Positions 24,928 to 34,937 of a stretch of DNA of 48,145 bases are shown here, piece after piece. The DNA lies in assembly GCA_009996515.1 (NCBI GenBank), contig JAACZV010000027.1, positions 1-48,145 on the forward strand. The letters are read 5' to 3'. This DNA comes from Comamonadaceae bacterium. GTDB taxonomy: Bacteria; Pseudomonadota; Gammaproteobacteria; Burkholderiales; Burkholderiaceae_C. Both the position numbers and the translations under genes were made by a program. The notes under the pieces are model-generated. The model made no database searches and was not told the DNA's origin. It worked only from the letters and a program-made list of their open reading frames with translations. Positions within the stretch are counted from its first letter, which is position 1, and each line of letters opens with the position of its first letter.

Positions 24928-26151
24928 ATGCGAAGACATCTATGGCCGCTCGGGCTGGCGGCTGCATTGCTCTGCCCATTCACCGTCCGCGCGCAGGCGG
25001 CGGACACGCTCAACCCACTCACCCTCGAACAGGCGCTGGAGCTGGCGGCATCGCGCAGCCCGCAGCTGTCGGCGGCGCGGCGTGAGATCGAGGCCCAGGC
25101 CGGCGCCCTGCAGCAGGCCGCCAGCCGGCCCAACCCGGAGCTCGCCGCGAGCGTGGAGGACCACCGCAGCGCGACGCGCACCACGACGGCCACGCTGAAC
25201 TTCCCGCTGGAGCTGGGTGGCAAGCGGGCCGCCCGCGTCAACGCGGCGCAACTCGCGCACCGGCTCGCGCAGGCCGAGCTGGCCGACGCCCGGGCCCAGG
25301 TGCGTGCCGCGGCCACGGCGGCCTATTTCGGGCTGCTGGCCGCGCAGGAGCGCGTCGAGCTGGCGACCCGGTCGGCCGAACTCGCGGCCAGCGGCGCCCA
25401 GGCCGTGTCCCGGCGCGTGGCGGCCGGCAAGGCCGCGCCCGCGGATGCGCTGCGGGCCCAGGTGGACCAGGCCAGCGCGCAGCTGGAGCTCACCGAGGCC
25501 CAGGGCGAGCTGACGGCGGCCCGCCATGCGCTGGCCGCGCAGTGGGGCGACACGGAGCCCCGCTTCGCGGCCGTCGCCGGCGGCCTCCAGGCCATCCCCG
25601 AGCGCGCGCCGCTGCCCGAGCTCATGGGCCGGCTGGACGAGGCGCCCGCGCTGCTGGCGGCGCGCACCGAGCGCGAGCGGCGCCAGGCCCTGGTGGACGT
25701 GGAGCGCAGCAAGGCGGTGCCGGACCTGACGTTCAGCGTCGGCGCCAAGCGCGACAACGAGCAGGGGCGCACGCAGGCCGTCGTCGGCCTGTCCATTCCG
25801 CTGCCGCTGTTCGACCGCAACCAGGGCGCGCTGCTGGAGGCGCGCAAGCGGGCCGACAAGGCCGACGACGAACTCCAGGCCGCGCGCCTGCGCCTGCGGG
25901 CCGAGCTGCAGACGGCGGCAACCCAGCTCGCCATCGCGCGCACGTCGCTGCAGACGCTGCAGGCCACCGTGCTGCCGGCGACGCAGCAGGCCTATGACAT
26001 GGCGCGCAAGGGCTACGAGGCCGGCAAGTTCGGCTTCCTCGACGTCATCGACGCGCAGCGCTCGCTGCTGCAAGCCCGGGCGCGCTACCTCGGCACGCTC
26101 GCCAACGCCTACCAGGCCGCCACGGCCATCGACCGCCTGATCGGTCGCTAA
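24928..26151 (+). CDS. czcC: CzcC outer-membrane efflux channel
   Basis: Outer-membrane factor of 407 residues, exporting cations from the Czc pump to the medium. The signal peptide covers about 1-23. The mature protein begins LTLEQALELAASRSPQLSAARREIE, the standard TolC-family first helix. The second repeat has VVGLSIPLPLFDRNQG (about 287-302) and ends AAKIG-like with YEAGKFGFLDVIDAQRSLLQAR. The long coiled helices between them are Ala/Glu/Arg-rich. It follows czcI by 69 bp and precedes czcB by 14 bp. Confidence 0.9.
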   Translation: MRRHLWPLGLAAALLCPFTVRAQAADTLNPLTLEQALELAASRSPQLSAARREIEAQAGALQQAASRPNPELAASVEDHRSATRTTTATLNFPLELGGKRAARVNAAQLAHRLAQAELADARAQVRAAATAAYFGLLAAQERVELATRSAELAASGAQAVSRRVAAGKAAPADALRAQVDQASAQLELTEAQGELTAARHALAAQWGDTEPRFAAVAGGLQAIPERAPLPELMGRLDEAPALLAARTERERRQALVDVERSKAVPDLTFSVGAKRDNEQGRTQAVVGLSIPLPLFDRNQGALLEARKRADKADDELQAARLRLRAELQTAATQLAIARTSLQTLQATVLPATQQAYDMARKGYEAGKFGFLDVIDAQRSLLQARARYLGTLANAYQAATAIDRLIGR

Positions 26152-26165
26152 GCAGACACATCCCC

Positions 26166-27386
26166 ATGGCAATCACAAACAAGCAACGCGCCGCGATGGC
26201 GCTCATCCTGCTGGTCGGCCTGCTGGCCGGTGCCGGGCTGATCATCGGTGCTCGACACCCGGCGGGCGACGACGGCGGGCATGCCGGCGAGGCCGGCCAC
26301 GCCCACCCCGAGGGCGGCGCCGCGTCCGCACCGGCCGCGGCGCATGGCGAGCACGAGGAGCGCCGGGTCGCTCTCACGCCGGAGCAGCTCGGCAAGGCCG
26401 GCATCCGGGTGCAGGCGGCCGGGCCGGCCCGGCTGCAGGCCGCCGTCGAGTTTCCCGGCGAGATCCGCTTCAACGAGGACCGCACGGCCCATGTCGTGCC
26501 TCGCCTGGCCGGCGTGGCCGAGCAGGTCGTCGTCAACCTGGGCGAGGCGGTGCGCAAGGGCCAGGTGCTGGCCGTCATCGCGAGCAACGCGCTGTCGGAG
26601 CAGCGCAGCGAGCTGCTGACCGCGCAGGAGCGCCGCGACGCGGCCCGGGCCACCTACGAACGCGAGAAGCAGCTCTGGCAGGACAAGATCTCCGCCGAGC
26701 AGGACTATCTGCAGGCCCGCTCGGCGCTGCGCGAGGCGGAGATCGCGGTGCGCAACGCGACGCAGAAACTGGCCGCCGTCGGCGCGGCCGCCGCCTCGAC
26801 CCGGCTCAACCGCTTCGAGCTGCGCGCCCCCTTCGACGGCACCGTGGTCGAGAAGCACCTCGCGCTGGGCGAGGCGGTCAAGGAGGATGCCAGCATCTTC
26901 ACGATCTCCGACCTGCGCTCCGTGTGGGCGGAGTTCAACGTCGCGCCCCAGGACCTGGCCACGGTGCGCGTGGGCCAGCGCGTGTCGGTGTCGTCGACGG
27001 CCTTCGACAGCAAGGTGGAGGGGCGCATCGCCTATGTCGGCGCGCTGCTGGGCGAGCAGACCCGCACCGCCCGCGCCCGCGTGACGCTGACCAACCCCGG
27101 CGGCGCCTGGCGGCCGGGCCTGTTCGTGACCGTCTCGGTGTTCGGCGACCACCAGGACGTGGCGCTGACCGTGCCGGCCGACGCCGTGCAGACGCTGGAC
27201 AACCAGGCCATGGTGTTCAAGGCCGTGCCCGGCGGCTTCGAGGCCGTGCCCGTCAAGCTGGGCCGCTCGGATGGCCGGGTGGTCGAGGTGCTGGGGGGGC
27301 TCAAGGCCGGCGACCCGGTCGCGGCCGCGAATGCCTTCGTCCTCAAGTCGGAGCTGGGCAAGGCCAGCGCCGGCCACGAGCACTGA
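26166..27386 (+). CDS. czcB: CzcB periplasmic adaptor
   Basis: Membrane-fusion protein of 406 residues. An N-terminal TM anchor (about 11-28) is followed by a His-rich segment with GHAGEAGHAHPEG and HGEHEE (about 37-66), the metal-binding region seen in CzcB relatives. Then come the lipoyl, hairpin (about 140-200, with EREKQLWQDKISAEQDYLQA) and beta-barrel domains with LRAPFDGTVVEKHLALGE. It bridges CzcA and CzcC and probably hands metal to the pump. It sits between czcC and czcA in one operon. Confidence 0.92.
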   Translation: MAITNKQRAAMALILLVGLLAGAGLIIGARHPAGDDGGHAGEAGHAHPEGGAASAPAAAHGEHEERRVALTPEQLGKAGIRVQAAGPARLQAAVEFPGEIRFNEDRTAHVVPRLAGVAEQVVVNLGEAVRKGQVLAVIASNALSEQRSELLTAQERRDAARATYEREKQLWQDKISAEQDYLQARSALREAEIAVRNATQKLAAVGAAAASTRLNRFELRAPFDGTVVEKHLALGEAVKEDASIFTISDLRSVWAEFNVAPQDLATVRVGQRVSVSSTAFDSKVEGRIAYVGALLGEQTRTARARVTLTNPGGAWRPGLFVTVSVFGDHQDVALTVPADAVQTLDNQAMVFKAVPGGFEAVPVKLGRSDGRVVEVLGGLKAGDPVAAANAFVLKSELGKASAGHEH

Positions 27387-27397
27387 GGAGGCCAGGC

Positions 27398-30300
27398 ATG
27401 TTCGAACGCATCATCCGCTTCTGCATCGCGCAACGCTGGCTGGTCATGCTGGGCGTGCTGGCCATGGCGGCCCTGGGCGGCTACAGCTACACCAAGCTGC
27501 CCATAGACGCCGTCGTCGACATCTCCAACGTGCAGGTGGTCGTCAACAGCGAGGCGCCCGGCTACTCGCCGCTGGAGACCGAGCAGCGCGTCAGCTACGC
27601 CATCGAGACCGTCATGGCCGGCCTGCCCGGCCTGGAGCAGACCCGCTCGCTGTCGCGCTACGGCCTGTCGCAGGTCACCGTCATCTTCAAGGACGGCACC
27701 GACCTCTACTTCGCGCGCCAGCTGGTCAACCAGCGCCTGCAGGAGGCGCGCGAGCGCCTGCCCGCCGGCGTGACGCCCAGCATGGGGCCCATCTCCACGG
27801 GCCTGGGCGAGATCTACCTGTGGACGGTCGAGGCCGCGCAGGACGCGCGCAAGCCCGACGGCACGGCCTACACGCCGACCGACCTGCGCGAGATCCAGGA
27901 CTGGGTCGTCAAGCCGCAGCTGCGCAACGTGCCCGGCGTCACCGAGATCAACTCCATCGGCGGGTTCGAGAAGCAGTACGTCGTTGCGCCCAGCCTGGAG
28001 CGCCTGGGCGCCTACGGCCTGAGCCTGGCCGATGTCGTCGGCGCGCTGGAGAAGAACAACGCCAATGTCGGCGCCGGCTACATCGAGCGGCGCGGCGAGC
28101 AGTATCTGGTGCGCGCGCCGGGGCAGGTCAAGTCCATGCAGGACATCGGCGACATCATCGTCGGCACCGCCCAGGGCCAGCCCGTACGCGTGCGCGACGT
28201 GGCCGCCGTGGAGCTGGGGCGCGAGCTGCGCACCGGCGCGGCCACCGAGAACGGGCAGGAGGTCGTGCTCGGCACGGTCTTCATGCTGATGGGCGAGAAC
28301 AGCCGCGCCGTCTCGCGGGCGGTGGACCGGCAGATGGCGGCCATCAACAAGACGCTGCCGGCCGGCGTCAAGGCCGTCACGGTCTACGACCGCACCACGC
28401 TGGTCGACAAGGCCATTCGCACGGTGCAGAAGAACCTGCTCGAAGGCGCGCTGCTGGTTATCGCGGTGCTGTTCGCCTTTCTCGGCAACTTCAGGGCGGC
28501 CTTCATCACGGCCATGGTCATCCCGCTGGCCATGCTGTTCACGTTCACGGGCATGGTGCGCTGGGGCATCAGCGCCAACCTGATGAGCCTGGGCGCGCTG
28601 GACTTCGGCATCATCATCGACGGCGCCGTGGTCATCATCGAGAACGCGGTGCGCCGGCTGGCCCACGCGCAGGCCTTGCGGGGCAGGGCGCTGACGCGCG
28701 CCGAGCGCTTCGACGAGGTGTTCGCGGCGGCCCGGGAGGTGCGCCGGCCGCTGCTGTTCGGCCAGCTCATCATCATGGTGGTCTATGTGCCCGTGCTGGC
28801 GCTGGGCGGCGTGGAGGGCAAGATGTTCCACCCCATGGCCTACACGGTACTGATCGCGCTGCTGGGCGCGATGCTGCTGTCGGTGACCTTCGTCCCCGCG
28901 GCCATCGCGCTCTTCATCGGCGAGCGCGTGACCGAGAAGGAAAACCGCCTGATGGCCTGGGCCAGGCGCCGCTACGAGCCCGCGCTGAAGGCGTCGCTGG
29001 GCAATGCGCCGGTCGTGCTGACCTTTGCCGGCGTGTCGGTGGCGCTGTCCGTCCTGCTGGCCACTCGGCTGGGCAGCGAGTTCGTGCCCCAGCTCAACGA
29101 GGGCGACTTCGCCGTCCAGGCGCTGCGCATCCCGGGCACCAGCCTGACGCAGTCGGTGGAGATGCAGAAGCAGCTGGAGCTGGCGCTCAAGGCCAGGTTC
29201 CCCGAGATCGAGCGCGTCTTCGCGCGCACCGGCACGGCCGAGATCGCGGCCGACCCCATGCCGCCCAACATCAGCGACGGCTACATCATGCTCAAGCCCA
29301 TCAGCGAATGGCCCGAACCGCGCAGGACGCGCGACGAGCTGCTGGCGGCCATCCGCGAGGAGGCCGCCAAGGTGCCGGGCAGCAACTACGAGTTCTCGCA
29401 GCCCATACAGCTGCGCTTCAACGAGCTCATCAGCGGCGTGCGCTCGGACGTGGCGGTCAAGGTCTTCGGCGACGACAACGCACTGCTCGAAGAGACGGCC
29501 AACCGCATCGCCACGGCGCTGCAGCGGGTGCCGGGCGCGACCGAGGTCAAGGTCGAGCAGACCACCGGCCTGCCCATGCTGTCGGTCCACATCGACCGGG
29601 CCAAGGCGACGCGCTACGGGCTGAACATGACCGACGTGCAGCAGACCGTCGCGACCGCCATCGGCGGCCGCGAGGCGGGCACCTTCTTCCAGGGCGACCG
29701 GCGCTTCGACATCCTGGTGCGCCTGCCCGACGAGGTGCGGCAGGACATCGAGGCGCTCAAGCGCCTGCCCATCCCGCTGCCCAAGGCCGGCGGCGAGGGG
29801 CGCGCCAGCTACCTCCCGCTGGCGGAGCTGGCGACGCTGGAGCTGGCGCCGGGGCCCAACCAGGTCTCGCGCGAGAACGGCAAGCGCCGCGTGGTGGTCA
29901 GCGCCAACGTGACGGGGCGCGACCTCGGCTCCTTCGTCGCCGAGGCGCAGGCCGCGCTGGCGGACGTGCCGGTCCCGGCCGGCTACTGGACGGCCTGGGG
30001 CGGCACGTTCGAGCAGCTGCAGTCCGCCTCAAAGCGGCTGCAGATCGTGGTGCCGCTGGCGCTGGCGATGGTGTTGGTGCTGCTGTTCACGATGTTCGGC
30101 AACGTCAGGGACGGCCTGCTGGTCTTCACGGGCATCCCGTTCGCGCTGACCGGCGGCGTGCTGGCGCTGTGGCTGCGCGACATCCCGCTGTCCATCTCGG
30201 CGGCGGTGGGCTTCATCGCGCTGTCCGGCGTGGCCGTGCTGAACGGCCTGGTCATGCTGTCCTTCATCCGCGGCCTGCGCGAGCAGGGCCGTAGCCTGGA

Positions 30301-30550
30301 CGACGCCGTCTGGCAGGGCGCACTGGCGCGGCTGCGGCCGGTGCTGATGACGGCGCTGGTCGCGTCGCTGGGCTTCGTGCCCATGGCCATCGCGACCGGC
30401 ACGGGCGCCGAGGTGCAGCGGCCACTGGCCACGGTGGTCATAGGCGGCGTGCTGTCCTCGACGGCGCTGACGCTGCTGGTGCTGCCGCTGCTGTACCGCT
30501 GGGCGCACCGGCGCGACGGCATCGCAGCCATCGTGGCCGTCGGCGCTTGA
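27398..30550 (+). CDS. czcA: CzcA cation/proton antiporter (HME-RND pump)
   Basis: Inner-membrane RND pump of 1050 residues, exporting zinc, cobalt and cadmium in exchange for protons. The TM4 signature LDFGIIIDGAVVIIEN places Asp402, Asp408 and Glu415 exactly as numbered in Cupriavidus CzcA. This marks the divalent-cation (HME1-like) class and separates it from the other pump in this window. Twelve TM segments and two large periplasmic loops are present, with SQPIQLRFNELISGVRSDVAVKVFG-type sequence near residue 668. GGAGG precedes ATG 27398. No czcD, czcR or czcS follows. Confidence 0.93.
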   Translation: MFERIIRFCIAQRWLVMLGVLAMAALGGYSYTKLPIDAVVDISNVQVVVNSEAPGYSPLETEQRVSYAIETVMAGLPGLEQTRSLSRYGLSQVTVIFKDGTDLYFARQLVNQRLQEARERLPAGVTPSMGPISTGLGEIYLWTVEAAQDARKPDGTAYTPTDLREIQDWVVKPQLRNVPGVTEINSIGGFEKQYVVAPSLERLGAYGLSLADVVGALEKNNANVGAGYIERRGEQYLVRAPGQVKSMQDIGDIIVGTAQGQPVRVRDVAAVELGRELRTGAATENGQEVVLGTVFMLMGENSRAVSRAVDRQMAAINKTLPAGVKAVTVYDRTTLVDKAIRTVQKNLLEGALLVIAVLFAFLGNFRAAFITAMVIPLAMLFTFTGMVRWGISANLMSLGALDFGIIIDGAVVIIENAVRRLAHAQALRGRALTRAERFDEVFAAAREVRRPLLFGQLIIMVVYVPVLALGGVEGKMFHPMAYTVLIALLGAMLLSVTFVPAAIALFIGERVTEKENRLMAWARRRYEPALKASLGNAPVVLTFAGVSVALSVLLATRLGSEFVPQLNEGDFAVQALRIPGTSLTQSVEMQKQLELALKARFPEIERVFARTGTAEIAADPMPPNISDGYIMLKPISEWPEPRRTRDELLAAIREEAAKVPGSNYEFSQPIQLRFNELISGVRSDVAVKVFGDDNALLEETANRIATALQRVPGATEVKVEQTTGLPMLSVHIDRAKATRYGLNMTDVQQTVATAIGGREAGTFFQGDRRFDILVRLPDEVRQDIEALKRLPIPLPKAGGEGRASYLPLAELATLELAPGPNQVSRENGKRRVVVSANVTGRDLGSFVAEAQAALADVPVPAGYWTAWGGTFEQLQSASKRLQIVVPLALAMVLVLLFTMFGNVRDGLLVFTGIPFALTGGVLALWLRDIPLSISAAVGFIALSGVAVLNGLVMLSFIRGLREQGRSLDDAVWQGALARLRPVLMTALVASLGFVPMAIATGTGAEVQRPLATVVIGGVLSSTALTLLVLPLLYRWAHRRDGIAAIVAVGA

Positions 30551-30574: not shown

Positions 30575-30814
30575 TCAGAGCCTGCGCATGGGCCGGGCCT
30601 GCGCCACCGTGACGGCGGGTGCCGAGGCCCTGGGCTGCCCGGCCACCACCGCGACCGGCGCCAAGGGTGCCGTATGGCCCACGACGACCACCCGCTCCAG
30701 CCGGGTGACCTCGGGCGCGGGTGCCGCCGTGCTGTCGGCCAGGCCGATGCCGATGACGGCGGCCGCAGCCACGGAGGCCAGGGCGATGGCGAAGGTCTGT
30801 GCGGCGGCGTTCAT
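30575..30814 (-). CDS. Small exported hypothetical protein
   Basis: A possible 79-residue protein. The N-terminus is a hydrophobic Ala-rich helix (about 5-26) that could be a signal peptide or membrane anchor. A Pro/Val/Ala-rich tail contains RLERVVVVGHTAPLAPV and ends in basic MRRL. No known domain is recognised. GGAG lies upstream of the ATG at acceptable distance. It is convergent with czcA (24 bp between stops) and is alone, so existence is moderately supported only. Confidence 0.5.
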   Translation of the reverse strand: MNAAAQTFAIALASVAAAAVIGIGLADSTAAPAPEVTRLERVVVVGHTAPLAPVAVVAGQPRASAPAVTVAQARPMRRL

Positions 30815-30968: not shown

Positions 30969-31436
30969 TCAGGCCACGTAGCCCAGTGGCAGCGCGGTCG
31001 TCAGCTTGAGCTCTTCCATCGCGAAGCTGGAGCTGACATCGTGCAGCCGGGTGCCGGCGATGAGGCGCTTGTAGACGCGGTCATAGGCCGCGATGTCGGG
31101 CACCACCACGCGCAGCAGATAGTCCACGTCGCCGCTCATGCGGTAGAACTCGACGACCTCCGGGATGGCCTGCACGGTGGCCTTGAAGGTCTCGAACCAC
31201 TCCTCGCTGTGCGTGCTGGTGCGCACCGACACGAAGACGGTGACGCCCACGTTCACCTTCTGCGCGTCCAGCAGCGCCACCTGGCGCGTGATGACGCCCG
31301 ACTCCCTGAGTCGCTGGATGCGCCGCCAGCAGGGCGTCGTCGACAGGCCCACGCGTTGCGCCACCTCGGCCACCTGGAGGGAGGCGTCCTGCTGCAGGAT
31401 TTCCAGAATCCGGATGTCTATGGAATCCAATTTCAT
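30969..31436 (-). CDS. Lrp/AsnC regulator, DecR/CyuR-like
   Basis: Transcription regulator of 155 residues. The helix-turn-helix (about 1-60) contains VAQRVGLSTTPCWRRIQRLRESG, and the RAM ligand-binding domain follows with RMSGDVDYLLRVVVPD and ends SSFAMEELKLTTALPL. From memory these stretches are closest to DecR (YbaO/CyuR), the cysteine-responsive Lrp relative of E. coli, rather than Lrp itself. It is divergent from the cysteine desulfurase fusion gene, which it probably controls. A 7-bp inverted repeat overlaps its own start codon. Confidence 0.85.
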   Translation of the reverse strand: MKLDSIDIRILEILQQDASLQVAEVAQRVGLSTTPCWRRIQRLRESGVITRQVALLDAQKVNVGVTVFVSVRTSTHSEEWFETFKATVQAIPEVVEFYRMSGDVDYLLRVVVPDIAAYDRVYKRLIAGTRLHDVSSSFAMEELKLTTALPLGYVA

Positions 31437-31462
31437 GGATTCAATTATGTTGGGATTGAGTT
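31423..31462. promoter_or_regulatory. Candidate Lrp-type operator with repeated GGATT motifs
   Basis: GAATCCA (31423-31429) and TGGATTC (31436-31442) form a perfect 7-bp inverted repeat around the start codon of the Lrp gene. GGATTCAATT (31437-31446) is echoed as GGATTGAGTT (31453-31462), 16 bp on. The block is the most AT-rich DNA in the region, as expected for an Lrp-family site. Confidence 0.5.
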
Positions 31463-31564
31463 TCTAAGCATCTGCGGATTTCGGCTGTTCGCCGCAACCC
31501 GCTTGCAGGCGCCGCTGGCCACAATGCAGCGCCGTCCTCCTCTCGCCGCCGCGCGCCCCGCCTC

Positions 31565-33808
31565 ATGGAAATCTATCTCGACGCCAACGCCACCACGCCC
31601 GTGCTGCCGCAGGCCCGCGCGGCGGCGCTGGCCGCGATGGCCGAGGATTTCGGCAACCCCAGCAGCATCCACAGCACCGGGCTGAAGGCGCGGGCGCTGA
31701 TGGACGGCGTGCGCGCCCGCGCGCGGCGGGTGCTGGGCGCCGGCAGCGGCCGGCTGCTGTTCCTCAGCGGTGCCACCGAGGGCATACAGACGGCCGTGCT
31801 GTCGGCCCTGAGCGCGCTGCGCGAGCGCGCGTACCGGCGCGAGCTGCTGTTGTACGGCGCCACCGAGCACAAGGCGGTGCCCGAGGCCATCAGGCACTGG
31901 AATGCGCTGCTGGGCCTGCACCTGCCGGTGCTGCCCATTCCGGTGGGCCGCGACGGGCGGCACGACCTGGCCTGGCTGCGCGAGCATGCCCCGCGTGCCG
32001 GCCTGGTCTGCACGATGGCGGCCAACAACGAGACCGGCGTCATCAGCGACCTGGACGGCATAGAAGCCGCGCTGCGGGACAGCCCCGCGCTGTGGCTGGT
32101 GGACGGCGTGCAGGCGCTGGGCAAGCTGCCGCTGCGCCTGGCCGAGCGCCGCATCGATTACGCGCCGTTCTCCGGCCACAAGCTCTACGCCCCCAAGGGC
32201 ATAGGCCTGCTGTACGTGCGCGACGGCGCGCCGTTCACGCCGCTGCTGGCTGGCGGCGGCCAGGAGGGCGCGCTGCGCTCGGGCACCGAGAACATGTCGG
32301 GCATTGCGGCGCTGGGCGCGGTGCTGGCGGCGCTGGAGGAGGGCGGCACATTCCGCGACGCCGCGACGCTCGCCGCCTACCGGGAGCGGCTGGCGGCGGC
32401 GCTGCAGCGGGCCTTCCCCGGCCTCGTGTTCAATGCGCCGCCCGGGCTGTGCCTGCCGACCACGCTGAACTTCGCGGTGCCGGGCCTGAGCGCCAAGCTG
32501 CTGCTGGACCTGTTCGATGCGGCCGAGCTGCGCGTCAGCGGCGGCTCGGCCTGCAGTGCGGCCAAGGCCCAGCCCAGTTATGTGCTGGAGGCCATGGGCC
32601 TGCCGGGCTGGCAGACGGCGTCGGCCGTGCGGCTGTCGTTCGGCCCGGTGGCGGACGAGGCCTTCATCGACGAGGCCTGCGCGCGCATCCGCGTCTGCGG
32701 CGAGTCGTTGCGCGAAAGCTGCCTGGATCCGAGCGCCCCCGGCCAGGCGCTGCCGGCCGACGGCCTGACCCGCTTCGTCGTCGATGGCGCCTGCTGCTAC
32801 CTGCTGGCCGACGCCGCCAGCCGCCGCGCCGTGGTCATCGACCCGCTGCCCGAGCTGACCGGGCGCCTGGCCCAGTGGCTGAACTGCCAGGGCTATGCGC
32901 TGGCCGCCGTGCTGGACACGCACAGCCATGGCGACCATGCCTCGTCGGCGCCCGAACTGCTGGCCGCCGTGCAGCAGCCGCGTGGCGACGTGGACGGCCT
33001 GGGCTGGCCCGGCGGCGTGGACGTGATCGAGCTGGGCGCGCTGCGCTTGACTCGCCTCGCCGTGCCCGGCCACACCCGGGACTCGACGGCCTATCTGCTG
33101 CACGATGCGGCCGGCCTGCGGCTGGCCTTCGTCGGCGACACCGTGATGCCCGGCGCGCTGGGCCGCAGCGATTTCGAGCAGAGCGCGCCGCTGGACTACG
33201 GCGCTTCGCTGCGTCGGCTGGCGCAGGCCGTCGGCCCGGACGCGCTGCTGCTGCCCGGTCACGACTACGACGACCGCTTCGCGAGCACGCTGGCCGTGGA
33301 ATGCGCGGCCCAGCCGCTGCTGGCCGACGTGCTGGCGGGCCGCCTCGACGCGGCGGGCTTCGCCGCCGCCAAGGCCCGGCTGGAACAGGGGCTGGCGCTG
33401 ACCGAATACCAGACCGTGGCCTGCGGCGCCCGCGTCGACGCCGGCTGCGCCCGGGCCTGCAGCGAACTCACGCTGGACGGGCTGCACGCGCTGCTGAAAG
33501 AGCAGCCGGGCCTGCGGCTGGTCGACGTGCGCGAGCCCTATGAGCAGCGGCTGGGCCAGGCGCCCGAGCTCGGCACCGGCCTGCGTCGCGAGGCCGTGCC
33601 GCTGTCCGGGCTGCCCAATGCGCTGCCGCGCTGGCTGGCCCTGCCGGCGCAGACGCCGGTGGTCTTCTTCTGCCGCAGCGGCAACCGCAGCGCCCAGGCC
33701 GCACAGGCGCTGCGCCGGCTGGGGCATGAGCAGGCCTGGAGCCTGAGCGGCGGCCTGGCCTTGTGGCCCCGGCCCAGCATGGCCGCGGACGCCGCCTTCG
33801 CGATCTGA
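31565..33808 (+). CDS. Cysteine desulfurase - metallo-beta-lactamase - rhodanese fusion
   Basis: A multidomain protein of 747 residues. Residues 1-385 form a NifS/IscS-like class V aminotransferase domain: DANATTP start, ATEHKAV, NNETG, PLP lysine Lys206 in FSGHKLYAPKG, and a mobile-loop Cys330 in GGSACSAAKAQPSYVL. Residues about 395-600 form a glyoxalase II/persulfide-dioxygenase-type metallo-beta-lactamase fold with THSHGDH (His453-His458), PGHT, GDT and PGHDYDD. Residues about 640-747 form a rhodanese with active Cys703 in CRSGNRS. All catalytic residues appear intact. A route from cysteine to persulfide, then sulfite, then thiosulfate on one chain is inferred. It is divergent from a DecR-like regulator. 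Confidence 0.88.
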   Translation: MEIYLDANATTPVLPQARAAALAAMAEDFGNPSSIHSTGLKARALMDGVRARARRVLGAGSGRLLFLSGATEGIQTAVLSALSALRERAYRRELLLYGATEHKAVPEAIRHWNALLGLHLPVLPIPVGRDGRHDLAWLREHAPRAGLVCTMAANNETGVISDLDGIEAALRDSPALWLVDGVQALGKLPLRLAERRIDYAPFSGHKLYAPKGIGLLYVRDGAPFTPLLAGGGQEGALRSGTENMSGIAALGAVLAALEEGGTFRDAATLAAYRERLAAALQRAFPGLVFNAPPGLCLPTTLNFAVPGLSAKLLLDLFDAAELRVSGGSACSAAKAQPSYVLEAMGLPGWQTASAVRLSFGPVADEAFIDEACARIRVCGESLRESCLDPSAPGQALPADGLTRFVVDGACCYLLADAASRRAVVIDPLPELTGRLAQWLNCQGYALAAVLDTHSHGDHASSAPELLAAVQQPRGDVDGLGWPGGVDVIELGALRLTRLAVPGHTRDSTAYLLHDAAGLRLAFVGDTVMPGALGRSDFEQSAPLDYGASLRRLAQAVGPDALLLPGHDYDDRFASTLAVECAAQPLLADVLAGRLDAAGFAAAKARLEQGLALTEYQTVACGARVDAGCARACSELTLDGLHALLKEQPGLRLVDVREPYEQRLGQAPELGTGLRREAVPLSGLPNALPRWLALPAQTPVVFFCRSGNRSAQAAQALRRLGHEQAWSLSGGLALWPRPSMAADAAFAI

Positions 33809-33833: not shown

Positions 33834-34937
33834 TCAACCCGAAGCCGTTGGCCCGCGGGTGATCTGGTCGGCGACGAACTCGGCGATGGCCAGCGAGGCC
33901 GTCAGCCCGGGAGATTCGATGCCGAACAGGTTGACCAGGCCGGCCGTGACCTCGATGCTGAAGTCCGCCGCCGCCATTCCCGGCCCGCCGAGCTTGGGCC
34001 GCACGCCGGCATAGGCCGGCGCGAGCGCGCCCGCGGGCAGCTCGGGCCAGTAACGCCGCACCTCGGCCTCGAAGGCCGGGGCCAGCGCCGGGTCGACGGC
34101 GTAGTCCAGCCCGCAGGGGTCGCTGTCCGGCAGCCATTGCACATCGGGGCCGAAGCGGGCCTGGCCGCCCAGGTCCAGCGTCAGGTGCACGCCCAGGCCG
34201 CCGTCCACCGGCAGCGGGTAGATCAGCCGCGCGAACGGCGCGCGGCCGGCCAGGGCGAAGTAGTGGCCGCGCGCGAAGCGCAGCGGCGGCGCCGCGAGGC
34301 CCAGCGACTCGGCCACGCAGCCGGCGAACAGGCCCGCACTGTTGACGACGCAGCGCGCCTGCAGCTCGAAGCCTTCGCCCGCACGCAGCCGCCAGCCCGT
34401 GGCCGTGCGCGCGCCGCCGGTGACGGGGCTGGCCAGGGCCAGCAGGGCGCCGGCCTGCTCGGCATCGGCCAGCAGGGCCAGCATCAGGCCATGGCTGTCG
34501 ACGATGCCGCTGGACGGCGACCACAGCGCGCCCTCGGCGCGCAGCGCCGGCTCCAGCGCCTGCACGGCCGCGCGGTCCAGCAGCGCCAGGTCGTCGACGC
34601 CGTTCGCGGCGCCCTGGGCGGCCAGCGCCTGCAGCCGCGGCATGTCGGCCGCGCGCGCCGCGACGACCAGCTTGCCGCAACGCCGGTGCGCGATGCCGCG
34701 CGCCGTGCAGTAGTCGTAGAGCAGCGCCTTGCCGCGCACGCACAGCCGCGCCTTCAGGCTGCCCGCCGGGTAATACAGCCCGGCATGGATGACCTCGCTG
34801 TTGCGCGAGGAGATGCCCGTGCCGATGGAGCCGGCCGCCTCGATGATGACGACCTCGCGCCCGCGCCGCGCCAGCTCGCGCGCCAGCGCGAGGCCCACGA
34901 CGCCGGCGCCGATGACGACGATGTCCACCTGGTCCAT
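33834..34937 (-). CDS. FAD-dependent oxidoreductase, L-2-hydroxyglutarate oxidase-like
   Basis: Flavoprotein of 367 residues in the D-amino-acid-oxidase superfamily. The N-terminal FAD-binding fold is [21 protein letters not shown] with Glu32 after it. [24 protein letters not shown] (about 42-65) is the hallmark of the L-2-hydroxyglutarate dehydrogenase/LhgO branch, and the C-terminal [20 protein letters not shown] closes the FAD site. It would oxidise L-2-hydroxyglutarate or a similar 2-hydroxy acid to the keto acid. It converges on the fusion gene and is separated by 126 bp from the aminopeptidase gene upstream. Confidence 0.8.

Follow-up and report, generated by a model that had tools for sequence, protein, structure and literature searches.

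Hydrogen sulfide (H2S) is toxic to aerobic respiration. According to the accessible parts of two papers, DecR/CyuR responds to cysteine by activating cyuPA, and ccdA is under the control of the orthologue CcdR (PMC9040844, PMC5423876); the desulfidase CyuA yields pyruvate, ammonia, and H2S and is inactive under oxic conditions (PMC9040844). Persulfide is turned into thiosulfate by Staphylococcus aureus CstB, as described in the available portion of a review. In a two-domain enzyme of Pseudorhodoferax sp. Leaf274 (WP_056898193.1; CyReB cysteine biosensor), sulfur was shown in vitro to move from cysteine to a persulfide on the cysteine desulfurase (CD) domain and on to one on the rhodanese (Rhd) domain, and replacing the Rhd cysteine lowered CD activity about tenfold with glutathione or beta-mercaptoethanol (PMC8931425, text seen in part). 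Here we describe a gene encoding CD, a metallo-beta-lactamase (MBL) domain of the persulfide dioxygenase (PDO) type, and Rhd in a single chain, found in a 48,145-nucleotide stretch (the window; contig JAACZV010000027.1 of the Comamonadaceae bacterium assembly GCA_009996515.1). We conclude that this fusion is probably a CyuR-controlled, oxygen-using cysteine-disposal enzyme that would give alanine plus sulfite or thiosulfate.

The sequence-only reading had placed all three domains in one chain with complete catalytic sets, and this was borne out, with Lys206, Cys330, His453/His455/Asp457/His458, and Cys703 each found at the position named. Pfam matched the protein to Aminotran_5 (residues 3-366, 4e-52), Lactamase_B (411-468, 6e-10), and Rhodanese (640-734, 1.6e-11), all above the curated cut-offs, and the start codon was kept, M1 being invariant in a 38-sequence alignment. 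The first domain has the pyridoxal phosphate (PLP) lysine, loop cysteine, active-site His and Arg, and fold type I of a class I (IscS/NifS-type) CD, and the last has the CXXGXR active loop within a rhodanese fold that marks a single-domain rhodanese. From titled genome records we kept the best 80 of 412 candidate stretches; 78 of these 80 relatives matched along the CD, MBL, and Rhd regions, the exceptions being one cut at a contig end (L067) and one whose broken frame leaves it without an N-terminal reading frame (L058). Ten stretches from other orders likewise matched along all three regions. An assembly chimera was thus ruled out, and the three-domain fusion is confirmed as real. Its label in the sole annotated record seen is "aminotransferase class V-fold PLP-dependent enzyme," so that the fusion gene is easily overlooked.

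One alignment of 170 sequences, the window included (∼154 distinct), comprised 88 members with an intact MBL domain, 61 with a decayed one, and 21 two-domain CD-Rhd forms. The catalytic sets of CD (His102, Lys206, Cys330, and Arg356) and Rhd (Cys703, Gly706, and Arg708) were complete in every member of each class (88/88, 61/61, and 21/21), and by analogy the CD domain is predicted to convert cysteine to alanine with formation of an enzyme persulfide. In the MBL-intact set (74 distinct sequences; L067 and L058 were dropped, as was L081, the copy from the window itself), the equivalents of the PDO iron ligands, His453, His503, and Asp525, were each present in 88/88, as were the second-sphere residues Thr452, His455, Asp457, His458, and His566; Arg534 was kept in 87/88, Asp536 and Tyr568 in 83/88 each, and Cys620 in 86/88. 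Since this class was picked by its THxHxDH motif, conservation of Thr452 to His458 within it holds by construction; that of His503, Asp525, and the CD and Rhd residues is independent of the selection.

In a characterized PDO, the residues equivalent to His453, His503, and Asp525 bind the iron (PMC6060420, seen in part; the residue mapping is ours). The A. caldus counterparts are H57, H113, and D130 for the ligands and T56, H59, D61, H62, R139, D141, H171, Y173, and C224 for the remaining residues, and nearly all residues reported there as essential are conserved in the intact fusion MBL domain, which carries both the 2-His-1-Asp iron ligands and the second sphere of a PDO. Of the metal ligands suggested earlier, His453 stood, while Asp457 and His458 mapped to the second sphere; His503 and Asp525 are additions to that list.

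Similarity searches pointed the same way. By sequence, the MBL domain was closest to ETHE1/PDO/PRF chains (2e-20 to 1.5e-13), followed by YcbL (1.2e-9) and human glyoxalase II (1.3e-7). Its similarity to the MBL-rhodanese structures 3r2u (4.5e-6) and 3tp9 (4.6e-6), which we take to be CstB-like, was lower than that to the ETHE1/PDO/PRF chains. In the profile ranking, 24 PDO1/ETHE1/PRF-type references scored above PDO2-, YcbL-, and GloB-type ones, and the predicted-fold ranking also placed the domain closest to PDOs; whole-model fold searches returned CD-type matches only, and the C-terminal half was therefore folded alone. The middle domain looks able to work as a PDO, with iron- and oxygen-dependent sulfite formation predicted.

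Divergent from the fusion gene lies a regulator gene of the Lrp/AsnC family. Compared with three E. coli proteins, DecR, Lrp, and AsnC, its product scored 161, 102, and 47 bits, respectively. Conversely, E. coli DecR had 10 matches in the genome, with this gene at the top (49% identity, 158 bits) and the next at 39% and 113 bits. A canonical Lrp as the neighbor was rejected, since a different gene, L213 (60% identity), is the Lrp candidate in this genome. In 106 of 170 loci (52/89 intact, 36/60 decayed, and 18/21 two-domain), a relative of the regulator lay within 400 bp in divergent orientation; six more loci had one on the same strand within 300 bp, and three of the remainder had fewer than 650 bases of upstream sequence. 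Across 91 intergenic regions, a palindrome of the TAGNAT..ATNCTA type reached a log-likelihood of 209.6, compared with 68.5 to 98.6 in 8 dinucleotide shuffles, with kinship among the regions not controlled for; as a putative regulator site this Lrp-like palindrome is weak evidence and only suggestive. The fusion gene probably belongs to a CyuR/DecR-type regulon, with cysteine-dependent activation predicted. Because it adjoins the gene for a likely cysteine sensor, a role in cysteine disposal is probable, and the earlier idea of a channel for excess cysteine gains independent support from this neighbor.

Building on the architecture, conserved catalytic residues, and regulator linkage observed for the fusion, we propose five steps, of which we infer the first, fourth, and fifth. 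The CyuR/DecR-type regulator would sense cysteine and switch the gene on. The CD domain would then strip sulfur from L-cysteine, leaving alanine and a persulfide on Cys330, and this persulfide would pass to Cys703 of the Rhd domain, as in the two-domain relative. Directly or via glutathione or another thiol, persulfide would next reach the PDO-type domain, whose mononuclear iron site would use O2 to oxidize it to sulfite, and Rhd may finally join sulfite with another persulfide to give thiosulfate. Little H2S would form in the net reaction, 2 cysteine + O2 -> 2 alanine + thiosulfate (or cysteine -> alanine + sulfite).

Table 1. Features of the fusion locus, with positions in the window
Feature	Position	Strand	Details
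Whole gene, CD-MBL(PDO-type)-rhodanese fusion	31565..33808	+	747 aa; stop of the open reading frame at 33808
Class I CD domain	31571..32716	+	Residues 3-384; His102, Lys206 (PLP), Cys330 (persulfide), Arg356
MBL domain, PDO type, plus C-terminal arm	32762..33433	+	Residues ~400-623; Thr452, His453, His455, Asp457, His458, His503, Asp525, Arg534, Asp536, His566, Tyr568, Cys620
Rhd domain	33473..33772	+	Residues ~637-736; active loop C703-R-S-G-N-R708
Divergent Lrp/AsnC-family regulator, candidate orthologue of E. coli CyuR/DecR/YbaO	30969..31436	-	49% identity
Shared intergenic promoter region	31437..31564	.	Best Lrp-like palindrome site starts ~114 bases before the fusion start codon

Several observations count against an oxidizing cysteine-disposal enzyme. 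The MBL domain was decayed in 61/170 aligned members and absent from 21/170, so that PDO activity is apparently dispensable in many lineages. The direction of the sequence-only reading, a cysteine-to-thiosulfate route or a channel for excess cysteine sulfur, is likely right, but by these numbers "self-contained" overstates the case for the family as a whole. The 10 stretches from other orders yielded no CyuR relative, and the same genome encodes a stand-alone PDO2-type homologue (G000 C20:33352-33966, L243; 4ysk-like, 3.9e-102). The MBL tree does not reject joining the domain with hydrolases: by the approximately unbiased test (p-AU), all constrained groupings were allowed, with GloB-type at 0.25, YcbL-type at 0.58, PDO2-type at 0.33, and PDO1-type at 0.52. 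The top NCBIfam model for the region was GloB, at 53 bits, far below its cut-off of 200.8. Two residues through which type I PDOs contact glutathione, Arg190 and Lys212 (A. caldus numbering), had no positional counterpart in the fusion, Leu585 replacing R190 in 87/88 MBL-intact sequences and the LPKP-like stretch that carries K212 having no equivalent. Finally, the conserved arm pair Cys620-Gly621 falls opposite the essential PDO cysteine (C224/C247) in the alignment, but Cys-Gly occurred at the arm in just 4 of the 10 PDO1/PRF-type rows shown, and both GloB-type rows had Cys without Gly.

The repeated loss of the oxidizing domain speaks for an alternative in which CD and Rhd feed persulfide to acceptors (tRNA thiolation, cofactors, protein persulfidation, or signaling) and the PDO-type domain burns the surplus as a safety valve. 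The decayed class retained little of the MBL site, with His503 in 6/61, Asp525 in 12/61, Arg534 in 3/61, and Cys620 in 5/61 (the alignment is gappy there), while CD and Rhd kept their catalytic residues throughout. Consistent with a supplier, CD-Rhd persulfidates roGFP2 efficiently, and the authors suggest persulfidation or H2S/persulfide synthesis (PMC8931425, in the part seen). A TusA-family sulfurtransferase gene also lies two genes upstream of the fusion copy on one Pseudoalteromonas plasmid (L206 5448-5666); no TusA gene was found in the other nine stretches from other orders. Against a supplier, the genome has another CD homologue available for delivery, and a regulator of the CyuR/DecR type suggests that surplus cysteine is being removed. 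We therefore regard a persulfide supplier as unlikely.

We consider it improbable that the MBL domain is a thioester hydrolase or some other metalloenzyme, or that its role is purely structural. The permitted GloB- and YcbL-type groupings and the NCBIfam result would allow it, the GRxDF motif is shared with this genome's YcbL-type protein, and the arm cysteine occurs in GloB-type rows as well. As that cysteine is common to GloB-type rows, and 6/10 PDO1/PRF-type rows lack Cys-Gly, we dropped it as a mark of PDOs. Against a hydrolase stand the three rankings by sequence, profile, and fold, together with the motif HDY, seen in 83/88 intact members, compared with HEY in two GloB-type rows and no such motif in the YcbL-type row. 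In the free tree search the fusion MBL fell on the PDO side (97/89; bootstrap not settled), on its own long branch (100/100). Grouping with plain hydrolases, which the sequence-only reading counted as a refutation, is disfavored by sequence, profile, and predicted fold and stays allowed by the tree. Very improbable is a reverse use, as proposed for the Burkholderia phytofirmans PDO-rhodanese fusion (BpPRF), in which Rhd would take the sulfane sulfur of thiosulfate, PDO would free sulfite for assimilation, and CD would add a second persulfide stream: turning cysteine sulfur into sulfite for cysteine synthesis is circular, the regulator type signals excess cysteine, and the two-domain relative prefers cysteine over thiosulfate ∼8-fold in kcat/KM (PMC8931425, in the part seen).

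According to the part of PMC6060420 available, type II PDOs likewise have neither R190 nor K212. The absence of this pair rules out membership in type I and does not bar a PDO as such. Within the preferred reading, a cysteine-disposal oxidase, we tentatively raise a narrower version that is possible but doubtful: the fusion may be a third, oxygen-using kind of CyuR-controlled system in which sulfur is oxidized while protein-bound (on Cys703 or a nearby cysteine), with no free glutathione persulfide and no H2S stage, and CD-Rhd may be a descendant that lost the oxidizing domain. Protein-bound oxidation would fit because the type I glutathione contacts are missing and the persulfide source is fused.

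Genome sampling was confined to the window's phylum. Relatives occurred in 40/250 genomes of the window's family (E ≤ 1e-100), in 81/245 of a second family of the same order (E ≤ 1e-80), and in 10/398 across the phylum (E ≤ 1e-65), eight of the latter in other orders of the same class (6/8 with THxHxDH); an even draw over the class gave 1/369 (E ≤ 1e-90), that one being the window's own. The distribution is thus patchy. By title, the 80 kept relatives were mostly Roseateles/Pelomonas, Variovorax, Comamonas, Acidovorax, Mitsuaria, and other Burkholderiales; 65 of them kept THxHxDH, and 15 did not (decayed MBL). Three large Pseudoalteromonas plasmids carry a relative spanning 98% of the query; of the two plasmid copies read, L205 had THxHxDH and L206 did not. 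Among the 41 genes in the 40 genomes of the window's family, the MBL looked intact in 19 (18 read and one judged by coverage only) and decayed in 7, and 15 were of the two-domain type; the 42 genes read out of 81 in the second family comprised no intact, 36 decayed, and 6 two-domain members. Intact and decayed copies even coexist in one genome, in Roseateles toxinivorans (L017/L073) and Ramlibacter WS9 (L051/L065).

In a CD-domain tree of 95 rows, made by a quick method with six outgroup rows, the fusion family formed a single clade (100, starred). Counting starred branches alone, the two-domain state requires at least five changes, and a single origin of two-domain forms was rejected (p-AU 5e-64; quick tree, group named after the tree had been seen). 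Basal two-domain rows adjoin the long outgroup branch, so that at the root the MBL domain may have been either gained or lost. Decay or loss of the MBL domain has recurred within the family, with the CD and Rhd residues persisting. Two of the two-domain members, L164 and L179, sit inside a starred node (98) of 13 rows, 10 of them MBL-intact. The catalytic cysteines of Pseudorhodoferax CD-Rhd are Cys334 and Cys466 (PMC8931425, in the part seen), and the same positions, 334 and 466, hold the CD and Rhd cysteines of L164 and L165 (501 aa). Because these numbers fit and L164 is nested among mostly intact rows, the Pseudorhodoferax enzyme appears to be a reduced family member that lost its MBL domain, its closeness to L164/L165 being judged from numbering and length.

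Other observations concern annotation and gene surroundings. The PADLOC models SspA and DndA score the CD domain (window 31571-32698) at 278 to 281 bits, and automatic defense annotation could misname the gene; a DndA/SspA defense protein would fit neither the MBL and Rhd parts of the chain nor its CyuR-type neighbor, and we read the score as general CD similarity. A role in Fe-S assembly is less likely, given the separate CD homologue elsewhere in the genome. Upstream of the regulator, window 24928-30550 (+) holds an outer-membrane efflux protein, an HlyD/CusB-type fusion protein, and a reading frame that by reading resembles a large RND pump, and thus reads like a heavy-metal-efflux-type operon; a 79-aa reading frame without a Pfam match (30575-30814, -) lies in between. 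Convergent with the fusion is a gene for a flavin adenine dinucleotide-dependent oxidoreductase (DAO; 33834-34937, -); in 17 MBL-intact loci the downstream region carries a relative of it on the opposite strand. In L181 and 16 more loci (13 decayed, 3 two-domain, and 1 intact) the fusion gene is followed on the same strand by a cluster, and the member scanned there is of the UPF0176 type and contains a rhodanese domain. In one locus of another order (L250 4171-9469), a PALP-family (cysteine-synthase-like) gene and a SLAC1-family transporter, for which an anion or sulfite exporter role would fit, lie near the fusion copy; this neighborhood showed no pattern across loci, and no conserved neighborhood was found among the stretches read from other orders.

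Two SoxY-type matches and two to Mo-co_dimer (sulfite-oxidase-type) were found in the genome. On contig 18, a SoxY-type and a SoxC/sulfite-oxidase-type match lie close together (G000 C18:11786-13782), suggesting a Sox thiosulfate-oxidation cluster. Since such matches are present, a sink for sulfite or thiosulfate in this genome is plausible.

Among the open-licence PMC papers listed by our searches, and in the text seen, we found no description of a three-domain CD-PDO-Rhd protein, subscription literature lying mostly outside the search. New here are the CyuR link, the repeated loss of the oxidizing domain, and the connection with a two-domain enzyme already studied. BpPRF (PDB 5ve3-5ve5) has a PDO-type MBL followed by one rhodanese and aligns with fusion residues 394-747, but it has no CD domain, its domains are arranged differently (15.5 Å over both domains, predicted model), and it has equivalents of the A. 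caldus R190/K212 glutathione contacts (PMC6060420, in the part seen) that the fusion lacks. CstB joins a PDO-type MBL and a rhodanese in one chain as the fusion does, again without CD. Pseudorhodoferax CD-Rhd shares the CD-then-Rhd order and, unlike the fusion, has no MBL/PDO domain; the main text of PMC8931425 gave 0 matches for dioxygenase or lactamase. The natural series from intact through decayed to lost suggests an origin for this unusually active biosensor enzyme and offers a ready-made comparison for the contribution of the oxidizing domain. Should our reading be true, persulfide channeling among three active sites would be directly testable in one protein. With CyuA desulfidase, the best known of the cysteine degraders under this regulator, and CcdA/CdsH desulfhydrase, which belong to other enzyme families, the fusion shares the regulator type and the probable purpose of cysteine degradation under CyuR/DecR/CcdR control. 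It probably lets aerobic bacteria shed excess cysteine with less release of toxic H2S, and, if so, an enzyme that takes cysteine to sulfite/thiosulfate in one fused chain would solve the problem differently from the H2S-releasing CyuA.
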